Source: Phycisphaerae bacterium
Lineage (GTDB): Bacteria; Chloroflexota; Anaerolineae; 4572-78; J111
NCBI GenBank assembly: GCA_028285035.1
Contig: JANQQF010000125.1
Span: 18,990 to 82,989 of the forward strand
Direction of reading: 5' to 3'
DNA length: 64,000 nucleotides
Position 1 is the stretch's first letter. Every line of letters starts with the position of its first letter. Both the position numbers and the translations under genes were made by a program. This document shows positions 1,537-44,416 of the stretch, one piece after another. The notes beneath the pieces were generated by a model. It was not told where the DNA came from and ran no database searches. It saw only the letters and a list, made by a program, of their open reading frames with translations.

Positions 1537-4098
1537 ATGTCAGATAAAGCGGCACGACCATTTTTACCCTTTTCCACAGGACCAAAAAATCAATTACGAC
1601 AGAAAGTGCGGGGGGGCGGTGCTCCGCCGAGAGAGAGTGCTGCGACGCACGGGCAGAATCTGATCCAGCAGGTTGAGGCCTTTCAGCGCGTGATTGATGA
1701 GCAGGCCAGCCAACGGGCGATGGACCTCCCCGATTTACCGGATGATGTGCAGGTGATTGTGGAGGCCAAGAAGCTGCTGCCGGATCAAGTTCGCTCCCTC
1801 GGGTTAACCCCGATTGAAGAACGGGAAGAAGGGATGTTGGTCACGGTCACGCCAGATGTGACGCTGCCCCTGCTCGTCAGTAAAGCTGAAAGCTACATCA
1901 GCGAACGGACGGACAGCGGTAATCCGCGCTTTGGAGGAGTGATGGCCCCCATCGAGCAAATTCGGCCTGCCAATCGAGATGATAAAGCTGGGGAGCAACT
2001 GGCTGCCCGACTCGAAGATGAACGTTTTGATTTGGATGACGCCCTGCTGGTTGATGTAGAGTTGGCTGGCGGAAATAACGAAGCTGGTAGTCGAAATCGG
2101 CAAGAATTCAACAACTACGTTAGTGGGATTGGGCTGGAAAGTACACCGTATCAGGTCGAAACGGTCACAGCGGCGGGCAACTTTATTGTCGAAGCTGATT
2201 ACTCGCTCCATCGCGTCCGGCTGCCAGGCCGAGCCATTCTTGATTTGTTGGATGACAGTCGGGCCAATTGGATTTTGTCCATCGAACTAGCCCTTGAAAC
2301 CATCAGCCGTACTACAGCTCTGCCCGATGAAGTGCGGGCCGACACGCCCACCCTCCCCCAATTGCCCCAGCACGCCCCTCGAGTGGTCATCATCGACTCC
2401 GGCATCGCCGCGGAGCATCCATTTTTCCAAGACGGCCCAGGCCGATCGATTATTGGACGTCAGCAAAACTTTATCGTCGATCAAATTACTGCCCCCCCAA
2501 CCGATGATGTCCCCACAGGGCACGGCACAGCGATTGCCAGCCTCGTCGCCTTTGGCACCCTAGCCGAACGACCGAGCGCCAATCAGCAGTCTGTTGAGCC
2601 GGCCTTTTGGATTGAAAATGCAAAAGTTTTAAATCCATCGGCAAATGGAGCATTGGGTGCCCTTGAATTTCCTCCCAATCAATTCCCCAAAGTTTTGATG
2701 CGTGAGATCGTTGGGGCCTTTCACAATCCAATGCCCCAACAGTGTAAAATATTTGTTTTTGCCGCTGGCACTGATCCCCATCCTCATCACACGATTGCTA
2801 ATTGGGCGGATGAGATTGATATGCTATCGGCCCAAAATGATTTGCTATTTGTGTTGGCAACGGGGGATCTTTCGCTTGAAGCGATTCGTGCTGCATTGAC
2901 CGAAGGGGAGAGCTATCCCGATTACTTGTTAGCAGATGAGGCCCGTTTGGTCAATCCTGGTCAAGCCTACCACGGGCTGACTGTCGGGGCGGTCACGCCG
3001 GAAACGGCGGCCCCAATCTCGCCGCTGCGTGATGAGCATACGTTGGCCCCCGCCCATTTTCCCGCCCCCTTCACCCGCAACGGTCAACCTCATCATGGCG
3101 GTTTGGTCAAGCCCGATGTGGTCGAGGTTGGGGGCAATCTGAGCCAGAAGGGGGCTGAGCTGGTCGGATCACCAGAAACGGCGGTGATTGTGGCCAATCG
3201 TGATTTTGCGATGGGCGAGGCGGAGCAACCCCTTGCCTTTCACTATGGATCGGGCGTTGCTGCGGCCAAGGTGGCTCATCTGGCCGGACGCATTCAGGCC
3301 CAATATCCCCAGGCCAGTGCAAACTTAATCCGAGCTCTGATTGTCAATGCCGCTCAGTGGCCGCGTGGTTTGCTGGAAATGGTGACCGCCAATGGCAATG
3401 CAATGATGGCGAAAGAGGACAAGCAAAAGCTACTGCGATTGTGTGGCTATGGTGTGCCTCAATTAGACAAGGCGCTCTCTGCTAATAGTCACTGTATGGT
3501 TTTTGTGACCGAGGATAAATTCACCTGGGTGGTAGAGGAAAAGAACAAGTCGGGGCGCTATCCGGCTAAAGTTTCATTCTTCTCGGTCAAACTTGAACCC
3601 GATGACATCTTCAATTTACCGCCCGCCACCAAAGTGCGGGTCAGCATTACGCTGGCTTATAACCCACCTGTTCGCAAGACCCAACGACGTCGTTATCAGG
3701 CTGTTGATCTGCGTTGGAATTTGAAACGAAGCGCCGAAGATAGCGAAGATTTTCAGACCCGCTGGATGGCGGAAATTAATGGCGAGGATGACGAAACAGA
3801 AAGTCCCCCACCTTCAGAAGGCCCTCGGCTCAAGCCTTGGCCGTGGGAACTAAAGCCCGTGCTAAATCCAGGCGGGAAGGTGCGCCGAGGCAGTCTCATT
3901 CGTGACTGGTTTGATGTCTACATTCACGATTTACCCCACACCCTTGAGTTGGTCGTGGTCGCAATGGTCGCGCCTTGGCGAAAGCCCCCAGAGCCATTAA
4001 CCCAAAACTTTGCCCTTGTGGTTTCCATTGAAACCTTGGAGGGGGATGTGGCGTTATATGACTCGGTGCGGGTTCACATGAATGGCGAAGCAGAGTAA
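1537..4098 (+). CDS. Subtilisin-like (S8) protein with degenerate catalytic site, 853 aa
   Basis: The middle of the protein has the S8 order of motifs: VVIIDSGI with Asp287 and TGHGTAIASL with His329. The position of the oxyanion-hole Asn reads LATGDLS (Asp444). The catalytic-Ser block, normally GTSxAxP, reads YGSGVAAAK at 570-578, so Gly573 sits where the nucleophile should be and Ser572 is shifted by one. The protein is long, with about 280 residues before the domain and about 220 after it, the latter ending in a beta-rich region. There is no signal peptide, so it is cytoplasmic. The architecture recalls cytoplasmic S8 proteins paired with an AAA ATPase, such as IetS of the IetAS antiphage system. 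No ATPase gene is adjacent here. It is either an inactive subtilase or a variant using the shifted Ser. A GGGGGA ribosome binding site precedes the ATG. Confidence 0.8.
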   Translation: MSDKAARPFLPFSTGPKNQLRQKVRGGGAPPRESAATHGQNLIQQVEAFQRVIDEQASQRAMDLPDLPDDVQVIVEAKKLLPDQVRSLGLTPIEEREEGMLVTVTPDVTLPLLVSKAESYISERTDSGNPRFGGVMAPIEQIRPANRDDKAGEQLAARLEDERFDLDDALLVDVELAGGNNEAGSRNRQEFNNYVSGIGLESTPYQVETVTAAGNFIVEADYSLHRVRLPGRAILDLLDDSRANWILSIELALETISRTTALPDEVRADTPTLPQLPQHAPRVVIIDSGIAAEHPFFQDGPGRSIIGRQQNFIVDQITAPPTDDVPTGHGTAIASLVAFGTLAERPSANQQSVEPAFWIENAKVLNPSANGALGALEFPPNQFPKVLMREIVGAFHNPMPQQCKIFVFAAGTDPHPHHTIANWADEIDMLSAQNDLLFVLATGDLSLEAIRAALTEGESYPDYLLADEARLVNPGQAYHGLTVGAVTPETAAPISPLRDEHTLAPAHFPAPFTRNGQPHHGGLVKPDVVEVGGNLSQKGAELVGSPETAVIVANRDFAMGEAEQPLAFHYGSGVAAAKVAHLAGRIQAQYPQASANLIRALIVNAAQWPRGLLEMVTANGNAMMAKEDKQKLLRLCGYGVPQLDKALSANSHCMVFVTEDKFTWVVEEKNKSGRYPAKVSFFSVKLEPDDIFNLPPATKVRVSITLAYNPPVRKTQRRRYQAVDLRWNLKRSAEDSEDFQTRWMAEINGEDDETESPPPSEGPRLKPWPWELKPVLNPGGKVRRGSLIRDWFDVYIHDLPHTLELVVVAMVAPWRKPPEPLTQNFALVVSIETLEGDVALYDSVRVHMNGEAE

Positions 4099-4158
4099 CT
4101 GTAACTGAAAAGATGATAGACAAATGTTGTCTGAAATTGAGAGGGAATAGAGAATCAA

Positions 4159-4190
4159 AAAGCCAAGTATGACTTTCTGAACTTGGCTTT
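4159..4190. terminator. Hairpin between convergent genes
   Basis: Perfect 10-bp arms AAAGCCAAGT (4159-4168) and ACTTGGCTTT (4181-4190) enclose a 12-base loop. It lies between the end of the subtilase-like gene and the minus-strand membrane peptide gene. A/T runs on both sides suit a weak bidirectional terminator. Confidence 0.6.
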
Positions 4191-4227
4191 AAAGTGGATT
4201 GATTTTTTGATAGGTTATTTGGTAGTT

Positions 4228-4359
4228 CTAAAAAACAAAGGCTCGACCACCCGTTACGGGGCTGGGAACCGCAAGTAAAAAGAGACATCCCAAAATAAGT
4301 ACAGCAAAGAAGAGTAAAATTGACAACACCAGTAATTGTTGTCGTGAAATTCCAAACAT
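4228..4359 (-). CDS. Small single-pass membrane peptide, 43 aa
   Basis: The frame starts ATG at 4359 and ends TAG at 4228-4230. The product has a short N-terminus (MFGISRQQ), one hydrophobic helix of about 22 residues (LLVLSILLFFAVLILGCLFL) and a short tail ending GGRAFVF. A clear GAGGAG ribosome binding site lies six bases before the ATG. Hydrophobicity, the ribosome binding site and a position just before a terminator hairpin support a real gene. Function is unknown; similar small peptides seem common in related genomes. Confidence 0.6.
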   Translation of the reverse strand: MFGISRQQLLVLSILLFFAVLILGCLFLLAVPSPVTGGRAFVF

Positions 4360-4472
4360 AGACCACTCCTCACACAACGCTTTGAAATTTTCCATCCTAC
4401 ATCTTTGATTTTACCCCACGCCCTAGATAAGCACAAGTCCCTTGAGGGTCGGCTGATTTTATGGAAAGGTGA

Positions 4473-5087
4473 ATGAGACGAAGGCTGGAAGGTTACATTG
4501 ATATGGAATTACTCAAAAAAGTAGCTAGAGGGTTAAAATACCGATCGATTCCTCATATAATTGGGCAAGAGATTGAAATACATAGCTTTGATACAATCAT
4601 CGACGACATTTTTAAGGCTCAAGCACATTCACTCCCAGCAAAGTATGAACAGATTTCCAGGATAAGTCCGATGGCTATCGCCAAATATGGAATTTTGGAT
4701 TTAAGGTTCGAGGTCTCACCACATTATTTGGGTGAAGGCGATGAACGTGGCATTCCTTTATTAAAAGCATTAGGCTTTATTCAGCCACCAGACACAAATC
4801 AAGAACCAGAGGTCTCAATGGAAAGTATAGAGGAGAAGCTAGATCCGCACTGTTTGGCTGAGTTGTCAGAGGACATAGACAAGCAGCAAACGCTACTGAA
4901 ATTATTTTTGACCAATGAATCGGTTTTAGCAAGGTATGATCGAGAAAGGATGTCACCCAGAGAGCTTAAGGATGTGCTTGATAATCTAGCAATACCCGAC
5001 GACTATTTTCCGCGCACATTTGTCATACAAGATGCTTGTTACACCAATTCCAACTTTGTCTGGTTTCTCAAACATTTTTATATTTAG
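4473..5087 (+). CDS. Hypothetical protein, 204 aa
   Basis: This is a soluble acidic protein that I do not recognise. Visible features are a likely globular N-terminal half (RSIPHIIGQEIEIHSFD, then ISPMAIAKYGILDLRFEVS), a Glu-rich linker around residues 110-125 and a helical C-terminal part ending WFLKHFYI. Two starts are possible. The ATG at 4473 follows AAGGTG closely; the ATG at 4503 has GGAAGG ten bases upstream, and would give 194 residues. Neighbours do not suggest a role. It is followed by a hairpin at 5112-5134. Confidence 0.6.
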   Translation: MRRRLEGYIDMELLKKVARGLKYRSIPHIIGQEIEIHSFDTIIDDIFKAQAHSLPAKYEQISRISPMAIAKYGILDLRFEVSPHYLGEGDERGIPLLKALGFIQPPDTNQEPEVSMESIEEKLDPHCLAELSEDIDKQQTLLKLFLTNESVLARYDRERMSPRELKDVLDNLAIPDDYFPRTFVIQDACYTNSNFVWFLKHFYI

Positions 5088-5111
5088 AATGTTCTTAATT
5101 TCGAGTAACCG

Positions 5112-5134
5112 AGAAGGCCGAGAGCAGGCCTTCT
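5112..5134 (+). terminator. GC-rich hairpin after the 204-aa gene
   Basis: Perfect 8-bp arms AGAAGGCC (5112-5119) and GGCCTTCT (5127-5134) enclose a seven-base loop 25 bp after the stop codon. No T-run follows, so termination is only plausible. Confidence 0.45.
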
Positions 5135-5215
5135 ACAAAACGAGAGAAACTTTGGGACCTATCGCCTTTGTGTTATGGTTCCCATAGTCAGAATCCATCG
5201 GTCGTTGCTTCCGGT

Positions 5216-5250
5216 CAGTGGATACCCGACAACACCATTCGAGTATGACA
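5216..5250 (-). repeat. Second copy of the TGTCAT...ATCCACTG repeat
   Basis: Read on the minus strand, this begins TGTCATACTCG and ends GGGTATCCACTG, matching the ends of the element at 150-183 with several internal differences. It lies just upstream of the ADP-ribosylglycohydrolase gene. Confidence 0.4.
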
Positions 5251-5283
5251 CAAACCACCTTTCTTAAGAAATTGTGAGGCACG

Positions 5284-6129
5284 ATGCTCATTGAATTAGC
5301 CATTGGTGATGCGTATGGAGCCGGGTTCGAGTACGCCGACCCTACGCTTGTACAACAAGAAAATAATCTGTCCCGCTACATCCAACACCCTTATCATAAT
5401 ATTGCGCCGGGTGCTTACACCGATGACACCCAAATGAGTTTGGCGATTGCAGAGGTAATTGTTTCGGGGAAGCCTTGGACCCCAGAGGTCTTGGCAGATC
5501 AATTCGTCCTCGCCTTCAATCGCGATCCTAGACCAGGATATGCCGGTGGCTTCTACAAATTTTTGCGAAGTGTGACTGATGGACAAGACTTTTTAGCTCG
5601 AATCAAGCCAGACAGCGATAAAAGCGGGGCAGCTATGCGGGCAGCCCCACTTGGAATTTATCAGTCGATTGAGGAAATCATCGAGGTGAGCAAAATTCAG
5701 GCTGCGGTCACCCACAACACACCCAATGGAATTAATGCAGCGATTGCAGCTGCTTTAATCGTTCACTACTTCCTCTACAAACGTGGCCGAAAACGAGATT
5801 TGGGGACATTTATCGAAACGTATGTCGAGGGCAACTGGGCAAAGCCTTGGGAAGGGAAAGTTGGGGCGAAGGGATGGATGAGTGTGCGGGCGACTCTAAC
5901 AGCCTTGATCCAAAGTCACTCAATGACTGAATTGTTACGAACCAGCATTGCTTTTACAGGTGATGTCGATACGGTAGCTACAATTGCCTTAGCCGCTGGG
6001 GCGCACGCCGATGAAATTGACCAAGATTTACCGACGCATTTTTATGATGGTTTGGAACGAGGTCAATATGGATATGATTATTTAAAAAATTTGGATCGCC
6101 AACTATTAAGCAAAATATCGAAGGCTTGA
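5284..6129 (+). CDS. ADP-ribosylglycohydrolase family protein (DraG-like), 281 aa
   Basis: Members of this family remove ADP-ribose from proteins or small acceptors using two metal ions. The sequence opens ELAIGDAYGAGFEY, the usual start of the fold, followed by the metal-binding YTDDTQMSLA. Near the C-terminus it has FTGDVDTVATIALAAGA, matching the GDxDT block that supplies the remaining metal ligands. The length is slightly short for the family. The start follows a GTGAGG ribosome binding site. Only one base separates its stop from the next ATG, so it is cotranscribed with the acetyltransferase. No ADP-ribosyltransferase or toxin gene is seen nearby, so its target is unknown. Confidence 0.85.
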   Translation: MLIELAIGDAYGAGFEYADPTLVQQENNLSRYIQHPYHNIAPGAYTDDTQMSLAIAEVIVSGKPWTPEVLADQFVLAFNRDPRPGYAGGFYKFLRSVTDGQDFLARIKPDSDKSGAAMRAAPLGIYQSIEEIIEVSKIQAAVTHNTPNGINAAIAAALIVHYFLYKRGRKRDLGTFIETYVEGNWAKPWEGKVGAKGWMSVRATLTALIQSHSMTELLRTSIAFTGDVDTVATIALAAGAHADEIDQDLPTHFYDGLERGQYGYDYLKNLDRQLLSKISKA

Positions 6130-7028: not shown

Positions 7029-7447
7029 AGGGTTCTCCTCAATTATCTGCTTGATAACTTGAAATAGTCAGGTCATCCAAAACCAGAATACTAGTTATAG
7101 ACCGCCAAACCCAGGCATCCTCCTGCCAAAAAGTGCCAAATTAGACGTTATCTCCAAACACCCTCAGAAAATGCTTAAACCTATAGTAATATAAACATTT
7201 TCCTGAAAAATACGGGCCAGATTAGGACTTTTGCACGCATTGAAATCACCTCATTATCTGTTATAATTGTAAAACGTACGTACTTTACAATAAATTCGAA
7301 CTGTATACCCCTATCTCTTGGCTAACATCATCCGTCTTACATTTGACCAATGTATGACCTTCAAAGACGGTTCTTAGCTGTATAGCAGGAAATTCACGAG
7401 ATCATTTTCGTCTTGCGTGATCGCAGACTACTGATGAGGAAGACGTA
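7029..7447. promoter_or_regulatory. 419-bp divergent intergenic region upstream of the Amt-kinase gene
   Basis: This gap holds the strong promoter and palindrome annotated separately, followed by a leader of about 170 bases before the Amt-kinase ATG. Nothing else is recognisable; no riboswitch fold or open frame with a ribosome binding site was seen. Confidence 0.5.
7240..7291 (+). promoter_or_regulatory. Sigma-70 promoter overlapped by an inverted-repeat operator
   Basis: TTGAAA (7240-7245), a 16-base spacer and a perfect TATAAT (7262-7267) form a strong sigma-70-type promoter. A perfect inverted repeat, ATTGTAAA (7266-7273) and TTTACAAT (7284-7291) around a ten-base ACGTACGTAC core, overlaps the -10 box and the expected start point near 7274. 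That position suits a repressor. The spacing does not fit the NtcA or GlnR/TnrA consensus. Confidence 0.65.
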
Positions 7448-10400
7448 ATGGAAAAATCAACGGTCGATATTTTATGGGTTCTGGTGAGTGCAGGACTTGT
7501 TTTCTTAATGCAGGCAGGCTTTTTAGCTCTGGAAACGGGTCTAACCCGCAGCAAGAATAATATCAATGTTGCCATAAAAAATCTGACCGACTTTGGTATT
7601 TCAATCGTCCTCTTTTGGGCTTTTGGCTATGCTTTCATGTTTGGCGATACAGCATCAGGTTGGATCGGTACAACCGCATTTGTACCTGATATCGGGCAAG
7701 GCAGCGTCTGGTTTGCTGTCTATTTACTGTTTCAGATAATGTTTTGCGGTACAGCGGTTACGATTTTATCTGGGGCTGTGGCGGAGCGGTTACGCTTTAA
7801 TGGTTACATATTTCTTGCTGTGCTTGTCTCTGGTCTGATTTACCCTGTATTTGGGCACTGGGCTTGGAATGGGATGAATTCAGGTGAAATGTTAGGCTGG
7901 CTTGGCGCACGGGGTTTCGTCGATTTCGCAGGATCAACGGTCGTCCATAGTGTGGGAGGCTGGGTTGGGCTAGCCACCTTATTTGTCATTGGGCCACGGG
8001 TTGGCCGTTTTACAAAAGGTGCTCCTCCCAAAAGAATTTCTGGATCCAACTTACCATTGGCCAGTGTCGGTGTCATTTTGTTGTGGTTTGGTTGGTTTGG
8101 CTTCAATGGAGGCAGCACGCTCGGCATGACTGATGATGTACCCTCAATTATTACAAACACCATCTTGGCTGGGGCGGGAGGATTAGTTGTAGCCTTAATC
8201 ATTAGCCGTGTTATTCATGGGAAAGCTATTACCGATTTGGTTATCAATGGATCCTTAGCAGGATTAGTAGCCGTTACAGCGAGCGCCCACGCTACCAGCT
8301 CGCTGGCCGCCTTAGTTATTGGAGGGATTGGCGGCTTCATAATGGTGATCATTAGCTACCTATTGGAGCGGTTCCATATTGACGATGCAGTTAGCGCCAT
8401 TCCTGTTCATTTAGGGGCGGGTATCTGGGGAACACTCGCCGTCGTCATCTTTGGAAACCCAGCCAAATTAGGTACTGGTTTGGGATTCTGGGCTCAACTA
8501 CAAATTCAAATTATCGGCATCGTGGTTTGTTTTGTCTGGGCCTTTGGCGTCACCTACATTCTGCTCAACATCTTCAAACACTTTATACAATTACGTGTGA
8601 CAAAAGAAGAGGAAAAAGTCGGCTTAAATATATCGGAGCACGGCGCAAAGACAGAACTGATCGAATTATTTCAGGTGATGGATCAACAATCCCAAACAGG
8701 TGATCTTACCCTACGTGCGCCGGTTGAACCATTTACAGAAGTTGGTCAAATTGCGCAAAGATACAACCAAGTCATGACCGCCCTTGAACAAGCCATTACT
8801 CGAACGCAAGCTATTGTTAGCACTGCGATGGATGGCATCATCACATTTTCTGAGTCAGCGCAAACCATTGTCACCCTAAATCCAGCCGCCGAAAGTATTT
8901 TTGGTTATCCTGCGCCACAACTAGTTGGGCAGCCCGTTAATATCCTCTTGGCTGACAATCATCCAGACAAAAATAAACCCAACCCTATTTCATCATTTGC
9001 GCTTGATCGTAACGTCGAAATTACTGGGCAACGAGCCGATGGATCAATTTTCCCGATGGAAGTCGTGATTACTGAGGCAAAAGTCGGTGAAGAAACCTTT
9101 TATACGGGCACTTTTCGTGACATCACTGAACGTAAACAGGCTCGAAATGAGCTTGAGAGGGCACGCGACTCAGCGGAGGCGGCCAATCGCTCTAAAAGTG
9201 TTTTCTTGGCCAATATGAGCCATGAACTTCGAACCCCGTTAAATGCTATTATTGGTTACAGTGAGATGTTACAGGAAGAGGCCGAAGAAGTTGGCGAAAC
9301 TACCCTAGTCAATGATTTGAGCAAGATAAACGGGGCAGGTAAACATCTTCTCACCTTGATAGATGATGTTCTGGATATTTCCAAAATTGAAGCGGGTAAA
9401 ATGGATTTGTATATCGAAGCTTTTGATGTGCAAGCCATGGTTGATGATGTCATATTCACGATTCAACCGCTGATCGAACAAAACCGAAACAAATTCCAAT
9501 TAAATTGTGATGACAATCTTGGGGATATTAAGGCTGATTTAACCAGAGTACGTCAAGTTTTATTCAACTTGTTAAGCAATGCCTGTAAGTTTACCGAGGA
9601 TGGTCTCATTGAATTGACCGTTGAACGACAGCCCATGCCAGAGGCAGAATTAATGGATAATAGACAGGATGAGCAACCTGTTACAGAGAGAGTCATCTTT
9701 CGTATTTCTGATAATGGAATTGGTATTGGCCCTGACCAAATTGATAACCTATTCCAGCAATTTACGCAAGCTGATACCTCAACCACCCGTAAGTATGGTG
9801 GCACGGGGCTTGGTTTGGCAATTAGTCGCCACTTCTGTCAAATGATGGGCGGGGACATCGCGGTTGAAAGTGAACTTGGACAGGGGTCAACGTTTATCGT
9901 ATGGTTACCTACTGAAGTGTCTCTCCCCGATGAGCAAGCAAGATCAACCACAATCTTTGGCACAATAGACCCCACAGAGTTACCTAGTCTTTCTTCTGCC
10001 ACAGATACTATTCTCGTCATTGATGATAATCCTCAAGTTCAGGAATTAATGCAACGCTTTTTAACCAAAGAAGGGTTTCAGGTCTTGATTGCGGCAAATG
10101 GCGAGGAAGGGTTGGCGTTGGCTCGTGAATATCAGCCAAATGTCATTACTTTAGATGTGATGATGCCAAAGATGGATGGATGGTCGGTTTTGACGGCCTT
10201 AAAAGCGGATCCGAGTTTAGCTGATATTCCAGTCATCATGCTAACCATTGTTAATGAAAAAAATATCGGATACTCGCTTGGAGCGTCAGATTATTTATTC
10301 AAACCAATCCAACGGCATCGATTAATTTCAGTCTTGAATAAATATCGATGTGTTAATTCCACATGCCAAGTCTTAGTTATTGAAGATGATCAAACGACAC

Positions 10401-10762
10401 GTGAGTTGACCAAACGTCTTTTAGAGAAGGAAGAGTTAACTGTAATTGAGGCTGAAAATGGGGAGATTGCGCTACAAACCTTGAAACGAAATTGTCCCGA
10501 TGTTATCCTGCTTGATTTAATGATGCCTGAAATGGATGGCTTCGAATTTATCTCACACGTGCAACAGCATCCGCAGTGGTCTAAAATTCCAGTGATTGTT
10601 GTTACGGCAATGACTTTAACGAATGAAGAACGTGCTCGCCTCAATGGCTCGGTAGAACAAATCATGCGTAAGGGAACTTACAGTCGTGATGAGTTGCTCA
10701 AAGAGGTACACCGCCTAATTTCCGAAAATATACCTTCAGTTCAAACTGAAGCCTCAGGTTGA
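7448..10762 (+). CDS. Ammonium transporter-hybrid histidine kinase fusion (Amt-PAS-HK-REC-REC), 1104 aa
   Basis: Residues 1 to about 385 are a complete Amt/Rh transporter domain. It carries both pore histidines: His167 in AGSTVVHSVGG and His321 in AIPVHLGAGIWG. A linker leads to a PAS domain (about 450-560), then a HisKA domain with His592 in [15 protein letters not shown] and an HATPase domain (N-box LLSNACKF, G-boxes ISDNGIGIG and [10 protein letters not shown]). Two receiver domains follow, with Asp903 in TLDVMMPKMDG and Asp1023 in LLDLMMPEMDG. Amt proteins fused to kinases are known, for example Ks-Amt5 of the anammox bacterium Kuenenia, and are thought to sense ammonium. Two C-terminal receivers make this a hybrid phosphorelay kinase. 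It heads a signalling cluster and has a strong promoter. Confidence 0.93.
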   Translation: MEKSTVDILWVLVSAGLVFLMQAGFLALETGLTRSKNNINVAIKNLTDFGISIVLFWAFGYAFMFGDTASGWIGTTAFVPDIGQGSVWFAVYLLFQIMFCGTAVTILSGAVAERLRFNGYIFLAVLVSGLIYPVFGHWAWNGMNSGEMLGWLGARGFVDFAGSTVVHSVGGWVGLATLFVIGPRVGRFTKGAPPKRISGSNLPLASVGVILLWFGWFGFNGGSTLGMTDDVPSIITNTILAGAGGLVVALIISRVIHGKAITDLVINGSLAGLVAVTASAHATSSLAALVIGGIGGFIMVIISYLLERFHIDDAVSAIPVHLGAGIWGTLAVVIFGNPAKLGTGLGFWAQLQIQIIGIVVCFVWAFGVTYILLNIFKHFIQLRVTKEEEKVGLNISEHGAKTELIELFQVMDQQSQTGDLTLRAPVEPFTEVGQIAQRYNQVMTALEQAITRTQAIVSTAMDGIITFSESAQTIVTLNPAAESIFGYPAPQLVGQPVNILLADNHPDKNKPNPISSFALDRNVEITGQRADGSIFPMEVVITEAKVGEETFYTGTFRDITERKQARNELERARDSAEAANRSKSVFLANMSHELRTPLNAIIGYSEMLQEEAEEVGETTLVNDLSKINGAGKHLLTLIDDVLDISKIEAGKMDLYIEAFDVQAMVDDVIFTIQPLIEQNRNKFQLNCDDNLGDIKADLTRVRQVLFNLLSNACKFTEDGLIELTVERQPMPEAELMDNRQDEQPVTERVIFRISDNGIGIGPDQIDNLFQQFTQADTSTTRKYGGTGLGLAISRHFCQMMGGDIAVESELGQGSTFIVWLPTEVSLPDEQARSTTIFGTIDPTELPSLSSATDTILVIDDNPQVQELMQRFLTKEGFQVLIAANGEEGLALAREYQPNVITLDVMMPKMDGWSVLTALKADPSLADIPVIMLTIVNEKNIGYSLGASDYLFKPIQRHRLISVLNKYRCVNSTCQVLVIEDDQTTRELTKRLLEKEELTVIEAENGEIALQTLKRNCPDVILLDLMMPEMDGFEFISHVQQHPQWSKIPVIVVTAMTLTNEERARLNGSVEQIMRKGTYSRDELLKEVHRLISENIPSVQTEASG

Positions 10763-10788
10763 GTCCTCAGCTTGAGGCCTCAAGCTTA
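10749..10788. repeat. Imperfect 13-bp tandem repeats with an 18-bp palindrome
   Basis: Three near-copies of GAGxCCTCAGCTT run across the Amt-kinase stop codon into the leader of the next gene. Within them 10769-10786 is a perfect 18-bp palindrome (AGCTTGAGGCCTCAAGCT) ending about 13 bases before the ribosome binding site of the solute-binding protein gene. It could be a hairpin or operator controlling that gene. Confidence 0.5.
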
Positions 10789-10809
10789 AGCCATCATAAG
10801 GGAGAAACT

Positions 10810-12465
10810 ATGTCTTTTGACAAAAACAAGCTTCATCCTGCTGTTCTTGATCTGCAAAGCGATTTTCGGCGAAACAAAATAACCCGTCGTGAATTTCTGC
10901 GTTTTGCAACCCTACTTGGAACGTCTGTTGCTACCGCCAGCGTTCTGGCTGGCTGTAGCCCTATTTTGCCAGATATAGCCACACCTGGTACCACTGGACA
11001 AGGCATGATTAAACGTGGGGGCACGATAACGATTGGTTCGGCAGTGCAAGCCCTAGTCCATCCAGCCCAACTGTCCTGGCTTGAGCAAGCCAATCAGTTA
11101 CGCCAAGTCGGCGAGTATTTAACAGAAACCGGCGCGGATAACATTACCAGACCCTGGCTTTTGGAAGGGTGGTCGGCAGATGAAGATGTGAAGACGTGGA
11201 CGTTGACTTTACGAAAAGGGATCAAGTTTAATAATGGGGCTGATTTGACCGCAGATGATGTTATTTTCAGCATTGAACAGTGGCTCAATCCAGACATGGG
11301 ATCATCCATGGCGACCTTGATGTCATATTTAGACTTTACCAATGTCGAGCGAGTGGATGACTACACCATTCGATTATACTTGAATGAGGCACAAATCGGT
11401 GTGCCAGAACACCTCTTCCATTACCCTGGCATGATTTTACCTCGCACCTTTGAAGGCGATTTTCTCAAACAACCTATCGGCACCGGACCATTCTTGTTAG
11501 ATGAGTATAGAGAAGGTGAGCGCATCTCATTTCGGCGCCGTGAAGATTACTGGCGCATGGGCGAGGATCAACAGCCATTACCCTATCTAGACGGAGTTAC
11601 CTATCTCGATTTAAGAGTTGACGACCGCATTGCTGCGATGGAAGGGCAAAAAATCGATAGCCTGTACAGCCCAACGATTAGTGATTTGGAACGGTTAGAA
11701 AATGTGCCGGGTTTGACGGTTTATACAGTGCCAACCTCCAGGGTTTTGGTTATTCGAATGCGTACAGACATTGAGCCATGGAATGATGAACGCGTCCGAT
11801 TGGCCTTAAAGTTGTGTCAAGACCGAGCGGAAATATTACGCCGCTCATTTGGGGAAGGACGTGGTGATGTAGCAATCGATGCCCATATCGCGCCAATTCA
11901 TCCCGCCTACTGTGAAAAACCGATCCCAGAGTATGATCTAGAGCGGGCACGTGCCCTTCTCGCCGAAGCAGGCTATCCAGATGGCTTACAGGTGACGCTA
12001 ACGACCAAAAATGATCAAGGTGAACCAGAAATGGCTGAAGCCTTGCGAGAGTTAGCTGCCCCTGCCGGATTTGATATTGATCTAAATATCGTTGAACCCT
12101 CAAAATATTGGGAGCAATGGACCGAAGTCAGTCTGGGAATTACAACATGGGCACATCGCCCCATCAGCACAATGATGCTTTCTTTAGCATACACGGCAGA
12201 TGACGAAGGCAACCCTGTGGCCTGGAATGAAACGCGTTGGGTCGATGAAGAATTTATCACATTGTTGCGTCAAGCTGAAAGACTACTTGATGTGGAGGAA
12301 CGTCGCCAAATTATGTGTCAAATGGAAGATATTATGCAGGAGCGTGGCCCCATTGGAATAAGTTTCTGGCGACAAGGTTTAAATATTACGCGTTCTGAAT
12401 TTAAGGGTATCGAAGCCCATCCAAGTAGTTATGATATACTTTACAACGTCTGGAAGGATGCTTAA
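10810..12465 (+). CDS. Tat-exported solute-binding lipoprotein (SBP_bac_5 family), 551 aa
   Basis: Family 5 extracellular solute-binding proteins bind peptides, opines or nickel complexes for ABC importers. The N-terminus has a twin-arginine motif (ITRREFLRF), a hydrophobic stretch and a lipobox VLAGC with Cys49, so it is probably a lipid-anchored protein exported by Tat. The mature part shows family blocks such as LRKGIKFNNGADLTADDV, GTGPFLLDEYREGERISF and ARALLAEAGYPDGL. The ATG at 10810 was chosen over an earlier in-frame codon because AAGGGAG lies just upstream. No permease or ATPase gene is adjacent. Placed between two sensor kinases, it may deliver a ligand signal to them rather than feed an importer; that role is inference. 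Confidence 0.88.
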   Translation: MSFDKNKLHPAVLDLQSDFRRNKITRREFLRFATLLGTSVATASVLAGCSPILPDIATPGTTGQGMIKRGGTITIGSAVQALVHPAQLSWLEQANQLRQVGEYLTETGADNITRPWLLEGWSADEDVKTWTLTLRKGIKFNNGADLTADDVIFSIEQWLNPDMGSSMATLMSYLDFTNVERVDDYTIRLYLNEAQIGVPEHLFHYPGMILPRTFEGDFLKQPIGTGPFLLDEYREGERISFRRREDYWRMGEDQQPLPYLDGVTYLDLRVDDRIAAMEGQKIDSLYSPTISDLERLENVPGLTVYTVPTSRVLVIRMRTDIEPWNDERVRLALKLCQDRAEILRRSFGEGRGDVAIDAHIAPIHPAYCEKPIPEYDLERARALLAEAGYPDGLQVTLTTKNDQGEPEMAEALRELAAPAGFDIDLNIVEPSKYWEQWTEVSLGITTWAHRPISTMMLSLAYTADDEGNPVAWNETRWVDEEFITLLRQAERLLDVEERRQIMCQMEDIMQERGPIGISFWRQGLNITRSEFKGIEAHPSSYDILYNVWKDA

Positions 12466-12513
12466 CATCTGTTTTAATGCTAACCAGAATTTATTATTTT
12501 ATTCAAAATTTAT

Positions 12514-15500
12514 ATGGCTAATCTGAAGGAGTCCCCCAGGCCTACAACTGAAGATCTAATGGTCAACGCGCTACGGGCCACGACCGTTTACTTTGGGGTT
12601 GCCGTCATAGCATTCTTTGTGGAGCTTTATCTTGCTTTACAAGGTTTAGGTTGGGAGATGTATGTCGTCACTGGCATTGGGGCTGGGTTAGTTTGTGTGA
12701 CATGGATTAGCATAAAACTCATCCAACAGCATCGTATCCGCCTTGGTATTCGTTTGATTATCATCGCCTCACTGATCTCCGTTTTAACCGCTCCTTTTTT
12801 AATTATCGGCCTTGGACTTATGCTTGGGTTGGGAACTGTGTTGGTGGTTCTGACCCTATCTTCTCAAACATTGCCATTTCAGGAAGCAAATCGGTTCCTG
12901 GTAACGAGTTTAGGGGTAGCGATCATTGCTGGGGCCATCGATCTTTGGCTTGATTGGTTTACGCTTTACCAACGGCTTGACGTTCCTTTATTTCAATTTG
13001 CAATGGCTGCGTTTGGTAGCCTCATGATTTTGATTTATGGATTACTAATTATTCGGCAGTTTAATGCTTATCCATTATTGACCAAACTATTGGTTATCTT
13101 TCTCTGCGCATCACTCATTCCGGTCGGCTTGTTATCTTTATTCAATGCCCAAAATACTCGAACAGCTCTGATAAACAGTGCCAACCAAGCATTGTTCGCC
13201 GCTGCTTCACAATCTGCTGATACTATCGATACCTTTATCGAAACAAATTTGGACAACGTCCGTACCGAAGCTCAAATTCCGGTATTTGTTCGATATCTAC
13301 TCCTGTCGCCTCCCCAACGCTTTGATAGTCCGGAAGAAACAGAAGTGACCGCGATACTCAAAGCGTTACGACAACGTGATAGACTCTTTATCTCTTCTTA
13401 TGCGTTATTGGATACCAATGGAATAAATGTTATAGACACGGTTGGCAGCCAAATTAATCAGGATGAGTCATCGTTTGACTACTATAAGATAGCCTTAAGA
13501 TCGGGGCTACCGTACGTCTCTCCCATACAATTTGCGCCATCCGGGCAGGCTTATTTTTATTTTAGCAGCCCAATTCGATCTAATTCTCGAAGCGGCACTG
13601 TCGGTGTTTTACGGGTAAGATATAGCGTTGCCGTTCTCCAGCAACTCATTGTGCACAATAATGAGTTAGCGGGACCTAACTCATTCGCCATCTTATTGGA
13701 TGAAAATCGTATCAGATTGGCACACGGTCAAGCGCCTAATTTAAGATTCAAGTCGGTTATGCCGCTCAACTCAGATGTGATTCAAGATTTACAAGCAAAT
13801 CGCCGACTCCCTATCCAACCTGAGAGTGAGTTAGCTACTGAAATCCCAGATTTTGAGGAGGGCTTAAACAATTTACCAGAGTCCCCATTCTTTACAAGTA
13901 GTCTAATGACATCCCAAGGTGAGCTTAATTCTGTGGCAGCGGATACTTTAGAAAACCAGTCTTGGATTGTTGCTTTTGCTCAACCGCAAAGCATTTTCTT
14001 GAATCCGGTTCAAGAACAGATACGCTCAATCTTATTCTTAGCCATCGCAATCTCAGGAATTGCAATCATCTTCGCTTATATTATTGCCCAATTGTTAGCA
14101 GCCCCACTTCTACACTTAACTGAAGTTGTCACGCATTTTTCGGAGGGTCATCTGGCAGCAAGAAGTTCAATCAAGACCGAAGATGAAGTTGGTATCTTGG
14201 GCCGTAGCTTTAATAAAATGGCAGAGCAGGTCAGCAATCTGTTAAACAATTTAGAAGAGCGAAAAACAGCTCTGGAAAATGAGGTCATTGTTAGAAAACA
14301 AGCCGAGGCTGACTTAGCACAACATCGCGATCAATTAGAAGTTCAGGTCGAGCAACGGACCCAAGAATTAACAAATAGTTATCAGCAGTTACAAATCGAA
14401 GTTCAAGAGCGGCAACGGATTGAGGAACAAATCCGCCAAAGAAATGCGTATTTAGCTGCCTTACACGACACGACATTGGGGCTGGTAAGTCGGCTAGATT
14501 TAAATGAGTTACTTGAGGATATTATTTCACGAGCGGGCCAACTATTAGAAACAAATCACGGCTTTATCTATCTACAGAATGATGATAATTGGCTAACGCT
14601 TAACGTGGCGATGGGTGTATTTGCAGTAAACCGAGGCAAGAGTATCAGCAAAGGCGAGGGGCTTGCTGGCACGGTCTGGGAGATGGAAATGCCTTTGACC
14701 GTTGATGATTACTATGCCTGGCCAGGACGAATAACAACACCTCAGTATAACGACATTCAAACTGCTACTGCATTTCCTCTAAAATCAGGTGAACAAATAA
14801 GAGGCGTCATTGGTTTGGCTCATCTTATCGACGCTCAACGCGCCTTTCAAGATGATGAGATAGAGCTATTACAACAGTTCGCGGAACTAGCCTCAATTGC
14901 CCTTGACAACGCTCAGCTTTATGCTGCCGCGCAACAAGAAATTGTGCAACATAAGCTCACCCAAACCGCATTAGAAAAAGCGAGAGATGAGGCTGAGGAA
15001 GCTAATCGAGCAAAAAGTGCGTTTCTGGCCAACATCACCCACGAACTACGTACACCGCTTAACGCCATTATTGGCTATAGCGAAATGCTTCAAGAAGATG
15101 CAACTGAATTCGGTTACACAAACCTAACGTCTGATTTACAAAAAATTTGGCTTGCTGGTGATCATTTGTTAACAATCATCAATGATTTATTAGATTTATC
15201 AAAAATTGAAGCAGGCAAAATGGATCTTTATCTCGAGACATTTGAGTTAACTCAATTGATTGAAGATCTTCTGCCCACCATTGAACCTCTGATCAAAAAG
15301 AACAAAAATGATTTTAAAATTCATTTTGATCAAAATCTAGGGTTAATGTACTCCGACCCACTTAAATTACGACAAATTTTGATAAATTTGTTAAGCAATG
15401 CGGCCAAATTCACCCAGGGTGGTAAAATTTCGTTAAATGTATCTCATCATTTCTCCCTTGATACCGATCAGATTGAAAATTGGTTATCGGGGGGGATAGA

Positions 15501-15798
15501 AAGCTTCACCAACGACCTAAACCCAAACATAGCCCATATTGCCTTTACCATATCAGATACTGGTATCGGAATGACCGAAGAACAGATGAAGCATGTGTTT
15601 GAGGCATTTACCCAAGCCGATATTTCCACAACACGACGATATGGGGGCACAGGTTTAGGGTTAGCAATTTGTGCAAGCTACTGTCAGATGATGGGAGGTC
15701 ATATCACGGTTGAAAGCGAATTTGGCGTAGGATCAACATTCCGATTCATACTGCCGGCGCAGTTAAACTTAGCTGAACCGGAGTATGAATTATCTTGA
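12514..15798 (+). CDS. Membrane histidine kinase with Cache, HAMP and GAF domains, 1094 aa
   Basis: The N-terminus has about six hydrophobic helices (20-190). A large extracytoplasmic region of Cache type follows (about 215-500), then a transmembrane helix at about 506-528 and HAMP ([13 protein letters not shown], about 527-580). Next come a long coiled coil rich in Gln and Glu, a GAF domain (about 650-805) and a second coil. HisKA carries His843 in [15 protein letters not shown]; HATPase has [16 protein letters not shown] and GGTGLGLAI. There is no receiver, so it needs a separate partner; the DivK-like protein 33 bp downstream is the obvious one. The kinase core closely resembles that of the Amt fusion, suggesting duplication. 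No clear ribosome binding site precedes the ATG. Confidence 0.9.
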
Positions 15799-15831
15799 AA
15801 ATTTCTAACTTCTATGTTATAAAGGATAACT

Positions 15832-16245
15832 TTGGGATTATTGAATTTGTTAGGCAAATTCGGCCCGAATAAAACGCTAAAAATGGCTAAAATTCTACTA
15901 ATCGAAGATAATGAAATGAACCGAGATATGCTATCCCGACGGTTATCACGACGCGGTTTTGAGGTCTTAATCGCAGTTGATGGCATTGAAGGTATTCGGT
16001 TTGCCCAATCAGAACAACCTAATCTAATCCTGATGGATATGAGCTTACCTGTATTGGATGGATGGGAGGCCACGCGACAAATAAAAGCAGACCCTGACAC
16101 GGCCTCAATTCCAATTATTGCTTTAACGGCACACGCCATGGCAGGCGATCGAGAAAAAGCATTGGCCGCTGGATGTGACGATTATGACACAAAACCAGTT
16201 GAACTATCCCGGCTATTGGAAAAAATTAATCGTATTTTAGGATAA
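15832..16245 (+). CDS. Single-domain response regulator, DivK-like, 137 aa
   Basis: The protein is one receiver domain. It has the acidic pocket in ILLIEDNEMN, phospho-acceptor Asp69 in LILMDMSLPV, a Thr switch in IIALTAHAMAGD and Lys in YDTKPVELSRLL, so it should be active. It has no output domain and probably relays phosphate or binds a target, as DivK does. Two starts are possible: TTG at 15832 with AAAGGA five bases upstream, or ATG at 15883, which gives the usual MAKILLIEDN start but lacks a ribosome binding site. The receiver core EDNEMNRDMLSRRL is nearly identical to that of the next gene, pointing to shared ancestry. Confidence 0.9.
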   Translation: MGLLNLLGKFGPNKTLKMAKILLIEDNEMNRDMLSRRLSRRGFEVLIAVDGIEGIRFAQSEQPNLILMDMSLPVLDGWEATRQIKADPDTASIPIIALTAHAMAGDREKALAAGCDDYDTKPVELSRLLEKINRILG

Positions 16246-16274
16246 TCTTAAGCAACGTTGATACAAACTTGGTC

Positions 16275-17588
16275 ATGATAAATCAAAAACCAGATGGGGT
16301 AACAATTGAAAATTGGGGGCAAACACCTGTGGAGGTTCAGGAATTTATCCTGCAAACCCTGCAAAATCTTGCAACGGCATCACCATCGTCAACGCAAGAC
16401 AGTAATCCGCTTCTATCGGCTGACACGCGTGCTGGTCATTTACTTGTTGTTGACGACAATGAAATGAACCGAGATATGCTATCTCGTCGCTTGGAACGAC
16501 ACGGCCATACCGTCAGTTTAGCTGTCAATGGCCGAGAAGCACTGGAAATGGTCGGGCAAGAGGCGTTTGATCTTGTTTTGCTAGACATTATGATGCCAGA
16601 AATGAATGGCTATGAAGTGCTAGAACGCCTCAAACAAGATGATGAAACCGCGCATATCCCAGTTGTAATGATTAGCGCCGTTGATGAAATCGATAGTTTA
16701 GTACGATGTATTAAGCTAGGCGCGGAAGACTATTTACCAAAACCGTTCAATCCAGTCTTGCTAAAAGCCCGGGTAGATGCTTCGTTAGAGAAAAAGTGGT
16801 TACGGGATCATCAAGTTGCCTACCTACAACAACTTACTCACGACAATCAACGTAAATCAAATGAATTAGAACAAGCCCGCGAAATTCAGCGATCAATGCT
16901 CCCCACCACGCCACCATCTATGCCATACCTGGATATTGCAGCCCAGCAGGATACAGCCACGGAGGTTGGTGGAGACTATTACGATTTTTTCACACAGCCA
17001 GATGGAAGTCTCCGTATTGCCATTGGAGATGCAACCGGGCACGGAGTCGCCTCGGGCCTCATGGTTTCGATGACAAAAGCCTCTCTAATGAGTACGAATG
17101 AGACCGATTTGCCAGCATTAATTCAGAAGATTAATCATACATTGGCTGGGATTGATTTGGGGACGCAGCTCAATATGGCTTTGATGGTGCTAGAATTAGA
17201 TCAAACAAGAGGCGATGTCGTTGATATAAAAGCGAGTGGTGGGGGAATGCCTCCTGCTTTTATCTGGCGGGCCAATGGTACGACTGAGGAGTATCTAATT
17301 AGTGGGTTCCCCCTGGGCATTATCCCTGATATCTCCTACAGTCAGGTTGAATTTGAGCTGTATTCTGGGGATACGATGTTACTAGCCTCTGATGGCTTAT
17401 CTGAGCGATTTAACGATCATCAACAATTTTTGGGCTTTGACCGTCTTACAACTGACTTGCAGAACATTGACCCATCAAAAGCGACGGCTGACGAAATTTT
17501 GCGACAGGCAGCAGCCATCAGCGATGATTGGGGCCAAAATCATCCCCTCCACGATGATATCACCTTGGTCGTGGTCAAAGTGTTATAA
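16275..17588 (+). CDS. Receiver-PP2C (SpoIIE/RsbU-type) serine phosphatase, 437 aa
   Basis: An N-terminal receiver has its acidic pocket in LLVVDDNEMNRDML, Asp104 in LLDIMMPEMNGYE and Lys in YLPKPFNPVLL. A coiled-coil linker joins it to a PPM-type phosphatase domain. That domain has AQQDTATEVGGDYYDFF, IAIGDATGHGVASGL and LASDGLSERFND, including the metal-binding Asp residues. Such RsbU-like proteins dephosphorylate anti-anti-sigma factors once the receiver is phosphorylated, but no STAS or anti-sigma gene is visible here. It is the likely output of the upstream kinases. ATG at 16275 is used; an in-frame TTG lies two codons earlier, and neither has a strong ribosome binding site. Its last 14 bases overlap the convergent gene. 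Confidence 0.9.
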   Translation: MINQKPDGVTIENWGQTPVEVQEFILQTLQNLATASPSSTQDSNPLLSADTRAGHLLVVDDNEMNRDMLSRRLERHGHTVSLAVNGREALEMVGQEAFDLVLLDIMMPEMNGYEVLERLKQDDETAHIPVVMISAVDEIDSLVRCIKLGAEDYLPKPFNPVLLKARVDASLEKKWLRDHQVAYLQQLTHDNQRKSNELEQAREIQRSMLPTTPPSMPYLDIAAQQDTATEVGGDYYDFFTQPDGSLRIAIGDATGHGVASGLMVSMTKASLMSTNETDLPALIQKINHTLAGIDLGTQLNMALMVLELDQTRGDVVDIKASGGGMPPAFIWRANGTTEEYLISGFPLGIIPDISYSQVEFELYSGDTMLLASDGLSERFNDHQQFLGFDRLTTDLQNIDPSKATADEILRQAAAISDDWGQNHPLHDDITLVVVKVL

Positions 17589-18402
17589 CCTCTAGATCTC
17601 TAATCTCCATCCATTGCGTTTCTTCGTGATTAATTAGTCCGTATCCAAATTTTCCCCACGGCGTCATGACCATATATTGGTTATCCAACCAAATGACCAA
17701 TCCCAAGGGGCCTCTCGGGGCCGTTTGACAATCTAAGACAACAACATCATCGACCTTGAAGGTCGCGGTTCCGGGATACCATTCCAATTGGTAGGTATGC
17801 CATTCCGTCATTTCAACATCATCCAACAGATGCTCACTCACTTGAATGGCACGCTGACCTATCGGCCAACAGGTGTTATACAGCCAAGGGACATTCATAA
17901 GTGGAACTGCCAAGGGGGCGGTGGGGAGTAAGGCAAAAAATGGCCACCGAAGGGCGTCAAGGGTGCCGGCTTTCCAGCCAGGGCCAGGTACGTCAGATGC
18001 TAATTTCATATTTGAAGGCGCAGAACTGTAGAAAAACCAGATGACCCGAGGCAAGGTGGGCCGTCTAGCCCCTGTCATCATAAACGGATCGTTCCAAAAG
18101 CCGAACCCGGCTGTACCACTCAGCTCTCCCACAGAATGCGAGAACCGAGCCTTAACAATCATTCGGACAGGTGGCTTCCACAAAAAATCGGATCGGGGCA
18201 GGGTCTGATAATCATCGATTTGAGCATCCGTGTATTGATCAGAGCGGGTATCTGTGTTGATGAATCGTAGGGTTTCCCCCGTCATCTCCACGCGACCTGA
18301 GCCGCGAATAAATGTTCTTAGTGTGTTGGGTAGTGTAGTCTCTGATGAAAAATTATTTAATTTTAGAATAGGTTTGGTCTGCTTCAAGTTGATGATCCTC
18401 AA
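17575..18402 (-). CDS. Hypothetical protein with a concanavalin-A-like (lectin/glucanase) fold, 275 aa
   Basis: This Trp- and Tyr-rich protein has a predicted beta-sandwich. The segment EWHTYQLEWYPGTATFKVDD followed by GPLGLVIWLDNQY closely resembles LamG/GH16-like domains in which a ligand-free jelly roll is common. The acidic catalytic motif of GH16 (ExDxxE) is not seen, so enzymatic activity is doubtful. No signal peptide is visible. The TTG start follows the acylphosphatase stop with no gap and has no good ribosome binding site, suggesting translational coupling or a later start near 18282 (ATG). The 3' end overlaps the PP2C gene by 14 bp. Confidence 0.65.
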   Translation of the reverse strand: MRIINLKQTKPILKLNNFSSETTLPNTLRTFIRGSGRVEMTGETLRFINTDTRSDQYTDAQIDDYQTLPRSDFLWKPPVRMIVKARFSHSVGELSGTAGFGFWNDPFMMTGARRPTLPRVIWFFYSSAPSNMKLASDVPGPGWKAGTLDALRWPFFALLPTAPLAVPLMNVPWLYNTCWPIGQRAIQVSEHLLDDVEMTEWHTYQLEWYPGTATFKVDDVVVLDCQTAPRGPLGLVIWLDNQYMVMTPWGKFGYGLINHEETQWMEIRDLEVITL

Positions 18403-18839: not shown

Positions 18840-20191
<1,352 letters not shown>

Positions 20192-27199: not shown

Positions 27200-27240
27200 T
27201 AGAGTTTATAGAGTTTGTAGGGTTTATAGGTTCATAGAGT
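27197..27240. repeat. TAGAGTTTATAGAGTT tandem repeat
   Basis: About five imperfect copies of a 7-9 base unit (TAGAGTTTA, TAGAGTTTG, TAGGGTTTA) start at the stop codon of the ABC ATPase gene. A matching tract lies at 31262-31296, at the end of the DUF4340 gene. Confidence 0.6.
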
Positions 27241-27269
27241 CAAATGGTTTAATGATTTTTTACTAACCA

Positions 27270-27285
27270 CTAACGTTTACGTTAG
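27270..27285. promoter_or_regulatory. Short palindrome upstream of the gldFG-type gene
   Basis: CTAACG (27270-27275) and CGTTAG (27280-27285) are perfect arms around TTTA, 39 bases before the ATG. An operator is possible; nothing shows which regulator would bind. Confidence 0.35.
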
Positions 27286-27324
27286 ACCTACTCAATTACC
27301 CACTATATTTTAAGGAGGCTCACG

Positions 27325-30273: not shown

Positions 30274-30298
30274 GTAAAGAGGAAAGGAGGTCATCACG

Positions 30299-43863: not shown

Positions 43864-44009
43864 TAGCTATCCCAGAGTTGATCTTTGCTTGGTCAAGCAA
43901 ATTTACATCATCAATATAGACATAGGGCTATGCACAGCCTATGTTGACATACTATAAACTGCATTAAATGCGATGTCTATGGTGGAATATCAACTACATT
44001 AACAAGTTT

Positions 44010-44414: not shown

Positions 44415-44416
44415 GA

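Follow-up and report, generated by a model that had tools for sequence, protein, structure and literature searches.

What is a gene for a solute-binding protein (SBP) doing between two genes for sensor kinases, with no transporter at its side? The question is raised by a cluster of five genes in a stretch of 64,000 nucleotides (64 kb) from contig JANQQF010000125.1 of assembly GCA_028285035.1, named Phycisphaerae bacterium and placed by GTDB in the Anaerolineae (Chloroflexota). The whole of this stretch is called the window below, and cluster positions are given in its numbering. Our answer, to which we assign a probability of roughly two in three, is that the SBP is a co-receptor of the second kinase, on a two-component/PP2C output core with exchangeable inputs. 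A preliminary description made from the sequence alone had listed five consecutive plus-strand genes, and open reading frames (ORFs) and Pfam scans (E 0.001) agree with its gene order and domains, with REC standing for receiver:

7448..10762, plus strand: gene 1, Amt (residues ~1-405)-PAS-HisKA/HATPase-REC-REC protein of 1104 amino acids (Pfam; relatives in the PDB; kinase and receiver motifs present)
10810..12465, plus strand: gene 2, SBP_bac_5 lipoprotein (Pfam; signal motifs; AGGGAG before the ATG; the mechanical ORF runs from 10759)
12514..15798, plus strand: gene 3, protein of 1094 amino acids with six hydrophobic helices followed by dCache (~213-497)-HAMP-GAF-HisKA/HATPase, without a receiver
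15832..16245, plus strand: gene 4, single-domain receiver, DivK-like (Pfam; likely true start ATG 15883)
16269..17588, plus strand: gene 5, REC-SpoIIE (PP2C-type) phosphatase (Pfam; SpoIIE motifs)

For genes 2 and 4 the TTG starts come from mechanical ORF calling; from the better start of gene 2, the ATG at 10810, 47 nucleotides remain to the end of gene 1. Pfam assigns Ammonium_transp, PAS, HisKA, HATPase_c and two Response_reg domains to gene 1, HAMP, GAF, HisKA and HATPase_c but no receiver to gene 3, one Response_reg to gene 4, and Response_reg plus SpoIIE to gene 5. Gene 2 matches SBP_bac_5 at E 6e-75, its structure model matches Dpp/Opp/Nik-type chains, and its signal combines a twin-arginine motif (RREFLR) with a lipobox (LAGC). 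Neither a permease nor an ATP-binding cassette (ABC) ATPase was found by Pfam within the cluster, in keeping with the earlier description of gene 2 as an orphan family 5 lipoprotein. The Cache assignment of gene 3 also stands: dCache_1 (PF02743) matches at 47.6 bits against a cut-off of 45, the domain has a dCache fold, and an AlphaFold2 (AF2) model and hydrophobicity place six largely hydrophobic helices ahead of it. The fold list also includes PDB entry 5ere, whose C-terminal half contains the dCache part; this entry did not appear among the matches of one Peripla_BP_6 query. The term phosphorelay was too loose. Kinases and receivers are present, but no HPt domain was detected in the five proteins (Pfam, E 0.001), so that a strict phosphorelay is not encoded here and a canonical one was rejected.

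The arrangement of gene 2, beside a receptor gene and without an adjoining permease or ATPase, recurs in other genomes. Class-wide searches of 396 genomes, in which only 2 to 4 candidates per genome were scored so that misses are possible, gave SBP_bac_5 matches in 75, and the three best relatives (G303, 66%; G001, 66%; G002, 65%) directly precede a dCache gene in this same arrangement. Among 30 loci read, the best from each genome, 23 contained a DppB-like permease, 3 the dCache gene and 4 neither, three of these last ending early at contig ends. Of the closest relatives whose context is known, three precede a dCache gene, one stands alone, and none is beside a permease. The pair also recurs with outputs other than that of the window: the dCache partner ends in SpoIIE in G001 and G002 and in PAS in G303, where an overlapping SpoIIE ORF follows (2.8e-37). 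Each of these three genomes holds a second, permease-linked SBP_bac_5 copy. Insertion of gene 2 as a stray was considered and rejected, since the pairing recurs elsewhere and another SBP stands at two of the core loci described below. Downstream of the G303 pair (L048, 3660-7454, minus strand) lie three ORFs, two of them weakly similar to the window SBP; the first (3660-4520) has a Pfam match to SBP_bac_5.

Phylogenetic analysis separated the window SBP from permease-linked proteins. In a quick tree of 106 SBPs it fell in a group of 48 (support 95*), in which 43 rows are of unknown context, four are dCache-linked (all those in the tree) and one is an orphan from G003 (L003). Permease-linked rows were absent from its group both in this tree and in a careful tree of 66 SBPs. 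A second permease-linked group (8) lay on the window's side of the midpoint root in the careful tree, on its own branch. By these trees gene 2 appears distinct from transporter SBPs, most rows of its group being of unknown context. Arg 43 and Cys 66 of the signal were invariant in 42 rows, five of which come from the permease-side group. In G003 the orphan gene is convergent with an SBP gene of the Bmp family (4695-5912, within L003 3021-7951), and beyond that the other strand encodes a protein that matches ABC_tran twice.

The pairing extends well beyond family 5. A query consisting of the dCache-HAMP part of gene 3 and its N-terminal helices matched in 61 of the 396 genomes, and 66 distinct relatives above 150 bits were read, most of the weakest places being left out. 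A same-strand gene lay within 300 bases upstream of 56 of them, and 43 of these neighbours (under 700 amino acids) were scanned with Pfam. An SBP was directly upstream of 24 of the 66 relatives, from six Pfam families (NMT1 9, SBP_bac_1 7, SBP_bac_5 3, Bmp 3, Peripla_BP_6 1 and PBP_like_2 1); two of the 24 pairs (L060 and L061) are near-identical. As a control we took 126 other signalling genes (at least 350 amino acids) from these loci; 104 had a neighbour of this kind, and the 49 neighbours under 700 amino acids were scanned. Here at most 7 upstream SBPs were seen among the 25 families listed of 32 (Peripla_BP_6 2, ABC_sub_bind 2, NMT1 1, PBP_like_2 1 and SBP_bac_5 1), a tally in which two of the families may match one protein. 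The difference, 24/66 versus at most 7/126, corresponds to a Fisher p of ~1e-7; this Pfam version is preferred to a phmmer version (25/65 versus 2/148), whose seeds were taken from the test loci and which is biased for that reason. The 64 neighbours (180-450 amino acids) examined for 25 pairs gave neither an ABC permease nor an ABC ATPase family among the 25 families listed of 115, each listed family having at least two members.

SBP families are also not scattered over the dCache tree (67 rows), on which the family labels change 14 times versus 23.9 when shuffled, with 0 of 200 shuffles reaching so few changes. The window belongs to a group of 7 (99*) that holds all four SBP_bac_5-paired rows. 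In database sequences, where co-location was judged by source contigs of equal longest length and a shared source, gene order not being visible, there are signs of five further SBP-dCache pairs (P0006/P0127, P0022/P0183, P0028/P0161, P0082/P0165 and P0120/P0145), where near-equal lengths would be expected to give 0.63 (0.22 if the source must also agree). One member, P0127, resembles gene 3 in being a dCache-HAMP-GAF-kinase. The same criterion gave no SBP-Amt pair. Fusion of an SBP to dCache or to a signalling domain was rejected for the fetched loci, in which the queries found 0 such ORFs. Close dCache relatives (P0146, P0153, P0155, P0157, P0166 and others) bear cyanobacterial names (Trichocoleus, Coleofasciculus, Microcoleus), and P0166 carries a cyclase domain.

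What surrounds the pair in the window is a core that occurs elsewhere with other inputs. We define this core as the kinase halves of genes 1 and 3 together with genes 4 and 5, that is, histidine kinase (HK)-REC-REC, HK, receiver and REC-SpoIIE. G003, G276 and G303 show the same order: a PAS-HK-REC-REC kinase (kinase 1), a second HK (kinase 2), a single receiver, a REC-SpoIIE protein and a convergent ORF resembling glycoside hydrolase family 16 (GH16), the counterpart of a further feature of the window:

17575..18402, minus strand: GH16-like ORF, convergent to the cluster (Glyco_hydro_16 weak, E 0.0017, below the cut-off)

Identity to the window is 62-64% for REC-SpoIIE, 73-75% for the receiver, 59-62% for the HK-REC-REC half and 54-61% for the kinase 2 half. 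An order search of 25 genomes and the class search of 396 both picked up the REC-SpoIIE relatives of the core, there at 61-63%. The GH16-like ORF is 62-68% identical across all four loci (window, L047, L178 and L196) and reaches E 6.6e-5 for Glyco_hydro_16 in G003; it might contribute to the output or simply be a long-standing neighbour. Core order was not seen at six weaker REC-SpoIIE places from the order search (38-52%, L197-L202). A more distant core-like locus, with a HAMP kinase and a receiver (L203, 3897-10859), comes shortly after a ZnuA-type SBP with an ATPase-like neighbour.

The sensors on this core differ from locus to locus. In G276 and G303 kinase 1 has no Amt; its front has two hydrophobic stretches ~300 residues apart, to which Pfam assigns no family apart from a weak HAMP below the cut-off, and kinase 2 is a GAF-PAS-HK without a hydrophobic stretch. 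In G003 kinase 1 has an extra GAF and loses its front at the contig end, and kinase 2 is a dCache-HAMP-GAF-HK. The gaps between kinases 1 and 2 (24, 97 and 22 bases in G003, G276 and G303) leave no room for an SBP gene, and a family 5 SBP is present at none of the three loci; the G003 orphan of the window's SBP group is on another contig. In G303, however, an SBP_bac_1 lipoprotein gene (1.3e-31) lies 225 bases upstream of kinase 1, and a dCache_1-HAMP-PAS-HK kinase of 787 amino acids lies 36 bases further up. G276 holds the same SBP_bac_1 (79% identical) and dCache kinase (77%) upstream of its core, with an extra HK-REC-REC kinase (1345 amino acids) between them and kinase 1. Over 217 residues the dCache part of this G303 kinase shares only 24% identity with gene 3, which marks the protein as a different dCache kinase and not a gene 3 that has moved. 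Thus an SBP and a dCache kinase accompany the core in the window, G303 and G276, with families other than the window's in the latter two. The SBP_bac_1 genes were found with 16 SBP seeds (six families) and Pfam; SBPs of further families could be missed in loci scanned without Pfam. The suspicion that the lipoprotein might be absent from orthologous loci is therefore true of the family 5 gene but not of SBPs as such.

The input proposed for kinase 1 is ammonium, and here the preliminary description holds up, as most of a sensor-type site is kept. The Amt domain of gene 1 is fused to a histidine kinase as in Ks-Amt5 of Kuenenia, and its PDB relatives are 8qj3, 8qpf and 6eu6. In the available part of PMC5764959 the ammonium site of Ks-Amt5 consists of Q24, E31, N47, D50, T51, T109 and T112; the aligned residues of gene 1 are Q, E, N, D, F, T and S. 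Five of the seven are identical rather than all, T112 to S is conservative and T51 to F is a change, and chain 8qj3 shows the same pattern as gene 1. Both acidic residues are kept (E29 and D48 of gene 1 align with E31 and D50), with Y and S in their place in the transporter 2b2f. Full-length Amt-PAS-HK-REC-REC relatives were found in four class genomes (G303, G064, G295 and G288), and their loci contained no relative of the window SBP or dCache and no match to the 16 SBP seeds. Eleven Amt-kinase loci were read (L167-L177), six of which (L170-L175) have a DivK-like receiver above 150 bits nearby; in G288 (L170) a second kinase is also near. The G303 protein (62%) is on contig 5, ~674 kb from its SBP_bac_5-dCache pair, and the core is on another contig. 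Fusions to kinases, receivers and HPt are included in the best 120 database relatives of the Amt part, for which candidates were restricted to proteins of fusion length. The kinase trees did not resolve the window kinases, so that a domain swap and a whole-gene swap are indistinguishable for gene 1. In G295 an enolase gene directly follows the Amt kinase (L169, 8898-13539); the window likewise has an enolase gene downstream of the cluster, at 18842-20191. Natural Amt-PAS-STAS (P0268, P0336) and Amt-SpoIIE (P0339) fusions tie ammonium sensing to partner-switching parts.

At the output end, gene 5 carries the SpoIIE-family motifs GGDYYD, GDATGHG, SDGL and DDIT, which we take to be catalytic. Partner switching, as suggested earlier, is plausible on account of this phosphatase, but a target at the locus was rejected, as no STAS domain was found in the 30 window proteins scanned (E 0.001; a subset of the window ORFs). 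STAS matches number 19 in G303, 19 in G003 and 20 in G276, none at the core locus, so a target of gene 5 encoded in trans is possible. HATPase_c_2 matches number 75, 59 and 60 in the same genomes, many of which may be ordinary kinases; one, on contig 3 of G303 at 1.42 Mb, lies 200 bases from a STAS match. The kinase domains of genes 1 and 3 are 56% identical, which would fit shared receivers and proves nothing.

From this arrangement we infer a docking interaction, a ligand, a flow of phosphate and a phosphatase target for the cluster, as follows. The two-component/PP2C core would be an older switch into which an SBP-dCache pair and an Amt sensor have been plugged, its exchangeable sensors here being Amt for ammonium on the gene 1 kinase and dCache on the gene 3 kinase. 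The gene 2 lipoprotein would capture a solute outside the membrane and, once loaded, dock on the dCache domain, and the signal would pass through HAMP and GAF to kinase 2. Both kinases would set the phosphorylation of the single receiver, of the REC-SpoIIE phosphatase, or of both, and the substrate of the phosphatase would be a protein phosphorylated on Ser/Thr, probably one of the STAS kind whose gene lies elsewhere.

Several observations weigh against this proposal and are taken here together with the explanations that compete with it. The core was found in only three other genomes. In G303 and G276 the kinase nearest downstream of SBP_bac_1 is not a dCache kinase, and the G003 locus has a dCache kinase with no SBP between its genes, its upstream part being cut off. 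F27, Y30 and F34, which close the pore of Ks-Amt5, are F, L and L in gene 1; because only one of the three bulky residues is kept, the Amt part may still transport. In the careful tree the window group, of 23 rows, has a support of 90/85, not starred. The gene 2 SBP might be an ordinary uptake protein for a permease encoded elsewhere, its place before a kinase being incidental or for co-regulation. SBP_bac_5 proteins normally feed ABC importers, the permease-linked loci (23/30) are the majority among the best relatives read, and at L067 the dCache relative comes after a complete transporter of the NMT1 type, with its NMT1 SBP, an ATPase and a permease. A comparison of 66 sensor-side rows (61 of unknown context) with 24 permease-linked rows gave only 4 positions that differ at 85% or more per side versus 186 conserved at 90% or more in each, and the two groups may for this reason bind similar ligands. 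We nonetheless consider an uptake role unlikely: the pairing recurs in G303, G001 and G002 alongside permease-linked copies, the cores of G303 and G276 are accompanied by an SBP of another family, upstream SBPs are enriched across the wider dCache family, and no ABC permease or ATPase is among the 25 families listed of 115 for the neighbours of the pairs.

Somewhat less likely again is that the dCache domain binds a small ligand of its own and the SBP only concentrates or removes it. The best fold matches of the gene 3 sensor are ligand-bound dCache domains, for example those of DctB and PctA, and for 42 of the 66 dCache relatives no SBP was detected immediately upstream, including 10 for which no same-strand neighbour was visible. 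SBP family nevertheless tracks dCache phylogeny, as expected if the two proteins meet, and LuxQ, whose Cache is listed without ligand binding in the available part of PMC8694187, is a precedent for SBP reading. We regard as improbable the original idea of one dedicated, conserved five-gene system integrating ammonium with a solute. The gene order is tight and on one strand, the theme of SBP, dCache kinase and core recurs in G303 and G276, and a database Amt kinase and dCache kinase (P0243/P0159; 0.12 such pairs expected) come from contigs of equal length 10907 and the same source, so that Amt and dCache may recur together; P0243 is 70% identical to the window over the Amt part. Against this, the other cores have an SBP and a dCache kinase that come from different families and are arranged differently, Amt is absent from the G276 and G303 cores (the G003 locus ends within the kinase 1 front), and the four full-length Amt-kinase loci lack the window's SBP and dCache relatives and any seed match. 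No second locus with all five genes was found, and a conserved set was rejected. The evidence supports two inputs and a SpoIIE output in one gene run; it does not support one dedicated set.

The co-receptor proposal can be widened, tentatively and at somewhat less than even odds. The gene 3 sensor would belong to a general SBP-reading dCache family of the Anaerolineae, with cyanobacterial-named homologues. Its members would be addressed by lipoprotein SBPs from six or more unrelated families and would signal onward to kinases, PP2C phosphatases or cyclases, and pairing with a new SBP would change what is sensed. The window's SBP-dCache pair and Amt would then converge on one PP2C switch that compares ammonium with an organic solute, and the SBP and dCache kinase of G303 and G276 would do the same job on the same core.

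Other features of the window lie around the cluster. One is a promoter-like element:

7240..7267, plus strand: TTGAAA-16-TATAAT with TG, 180 nucleotides upstream of gene 1 (consensus scan, 11/12)

The region has 24 such sites versus 21.3 (standard deviation 5.5) in shuffles, which is no excess. A row of plus-strand genes at 26279-31261 (ABC_tran, ABC_transp_aux/DUF7088 and DUF4340) represents an ABC-2-type system unrelated to the gene 2 SBP. A second signalling group on the minus strand (42661-47299) comprises a receiver-Ser/Thr kinase (42661-43863), an ORF of 134 amino acids (44010-44414) and a protein with four GAF matches and HATPase (44420-47299).

If the co-receptor proposal is true, many of the bacterial receptors here bind their ligand through a separate lipoprotein that can be replaced, and assays on soluble SBPs, in place of membrane kinases, could reveal the ligands. 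The loci would also amount to a naturally occurring set of exchanges, of sensors and of SBPs, on one output core, and would permit testing directly how signals from ammonium and organic nutrients are combined through a Ser/Thr phosphatase.

Among known systems, LuxP is the SBP partner of LuxQ, and the LuxP-LuxQ pair resembles genes 2 and 3 in placing an SBP gene beside a kinase gene. LuxQ has a Cache-type sensor (PMC8694187, available part), and in BctC-BctE the SBP gene is beside that of a kinase with a periplasmic sensor domain (PMC9602780, available part). Unlike either, the window has an SBP_bac_5 lipoprotein with a Tat-type (twin-arginine) signal, and its dCache family is accompanied by six SBP families and has kinase or SpoIIE outputs. 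Chlamydia RsbU (fold match 6mab) has a dCache-like sensor on a PP2C output, comparable to the G001 and G002 partners; the available part of PMC11619594 describes no SBP, and in the window the sensor kinase and the REC-SpoIIE phosphatase are two distinct proteins. In the permease-linked SBP_bac_5 importers found in Anaerolineae (L006, L179, L183 and L184) the SBPs are 58-60% identical, but by Pfam the SBP gene at L184 comes before genes for two BPD_transp_1 permeases, for a double ABC ATPase and for a protein with CBS. Ks-Amt5 shares with gene 1 the fusion of Amt to a HisKA kinase, the ligands Q24, E31, N47, D50 and T109, and the His pair, Phe gate and Trp/Ser filter residues; gene 1 differs in T51 to F, T112 to S, the retention of F27 alone among the three bulky pore residues, a PAS domain between Amt and kinase, two receivers and an adjoining second kinase (PMC5764959, available part). 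Amt-kinase fusions and SBP-activated receptors are already known, as the available parts of PMC5764959, PMC9602780, PMC10433425 and PMC11113362 attest. No publication on the SBP-dCache family, the sensor-swapping core or this Chloroflexota cluster was found, judged by titles and abstracts and with most subscription papers outside that coverage. The parts of the cluster are of known kinds, and the SBP-reading dCache family and the sensor-swapping core appear to be new.

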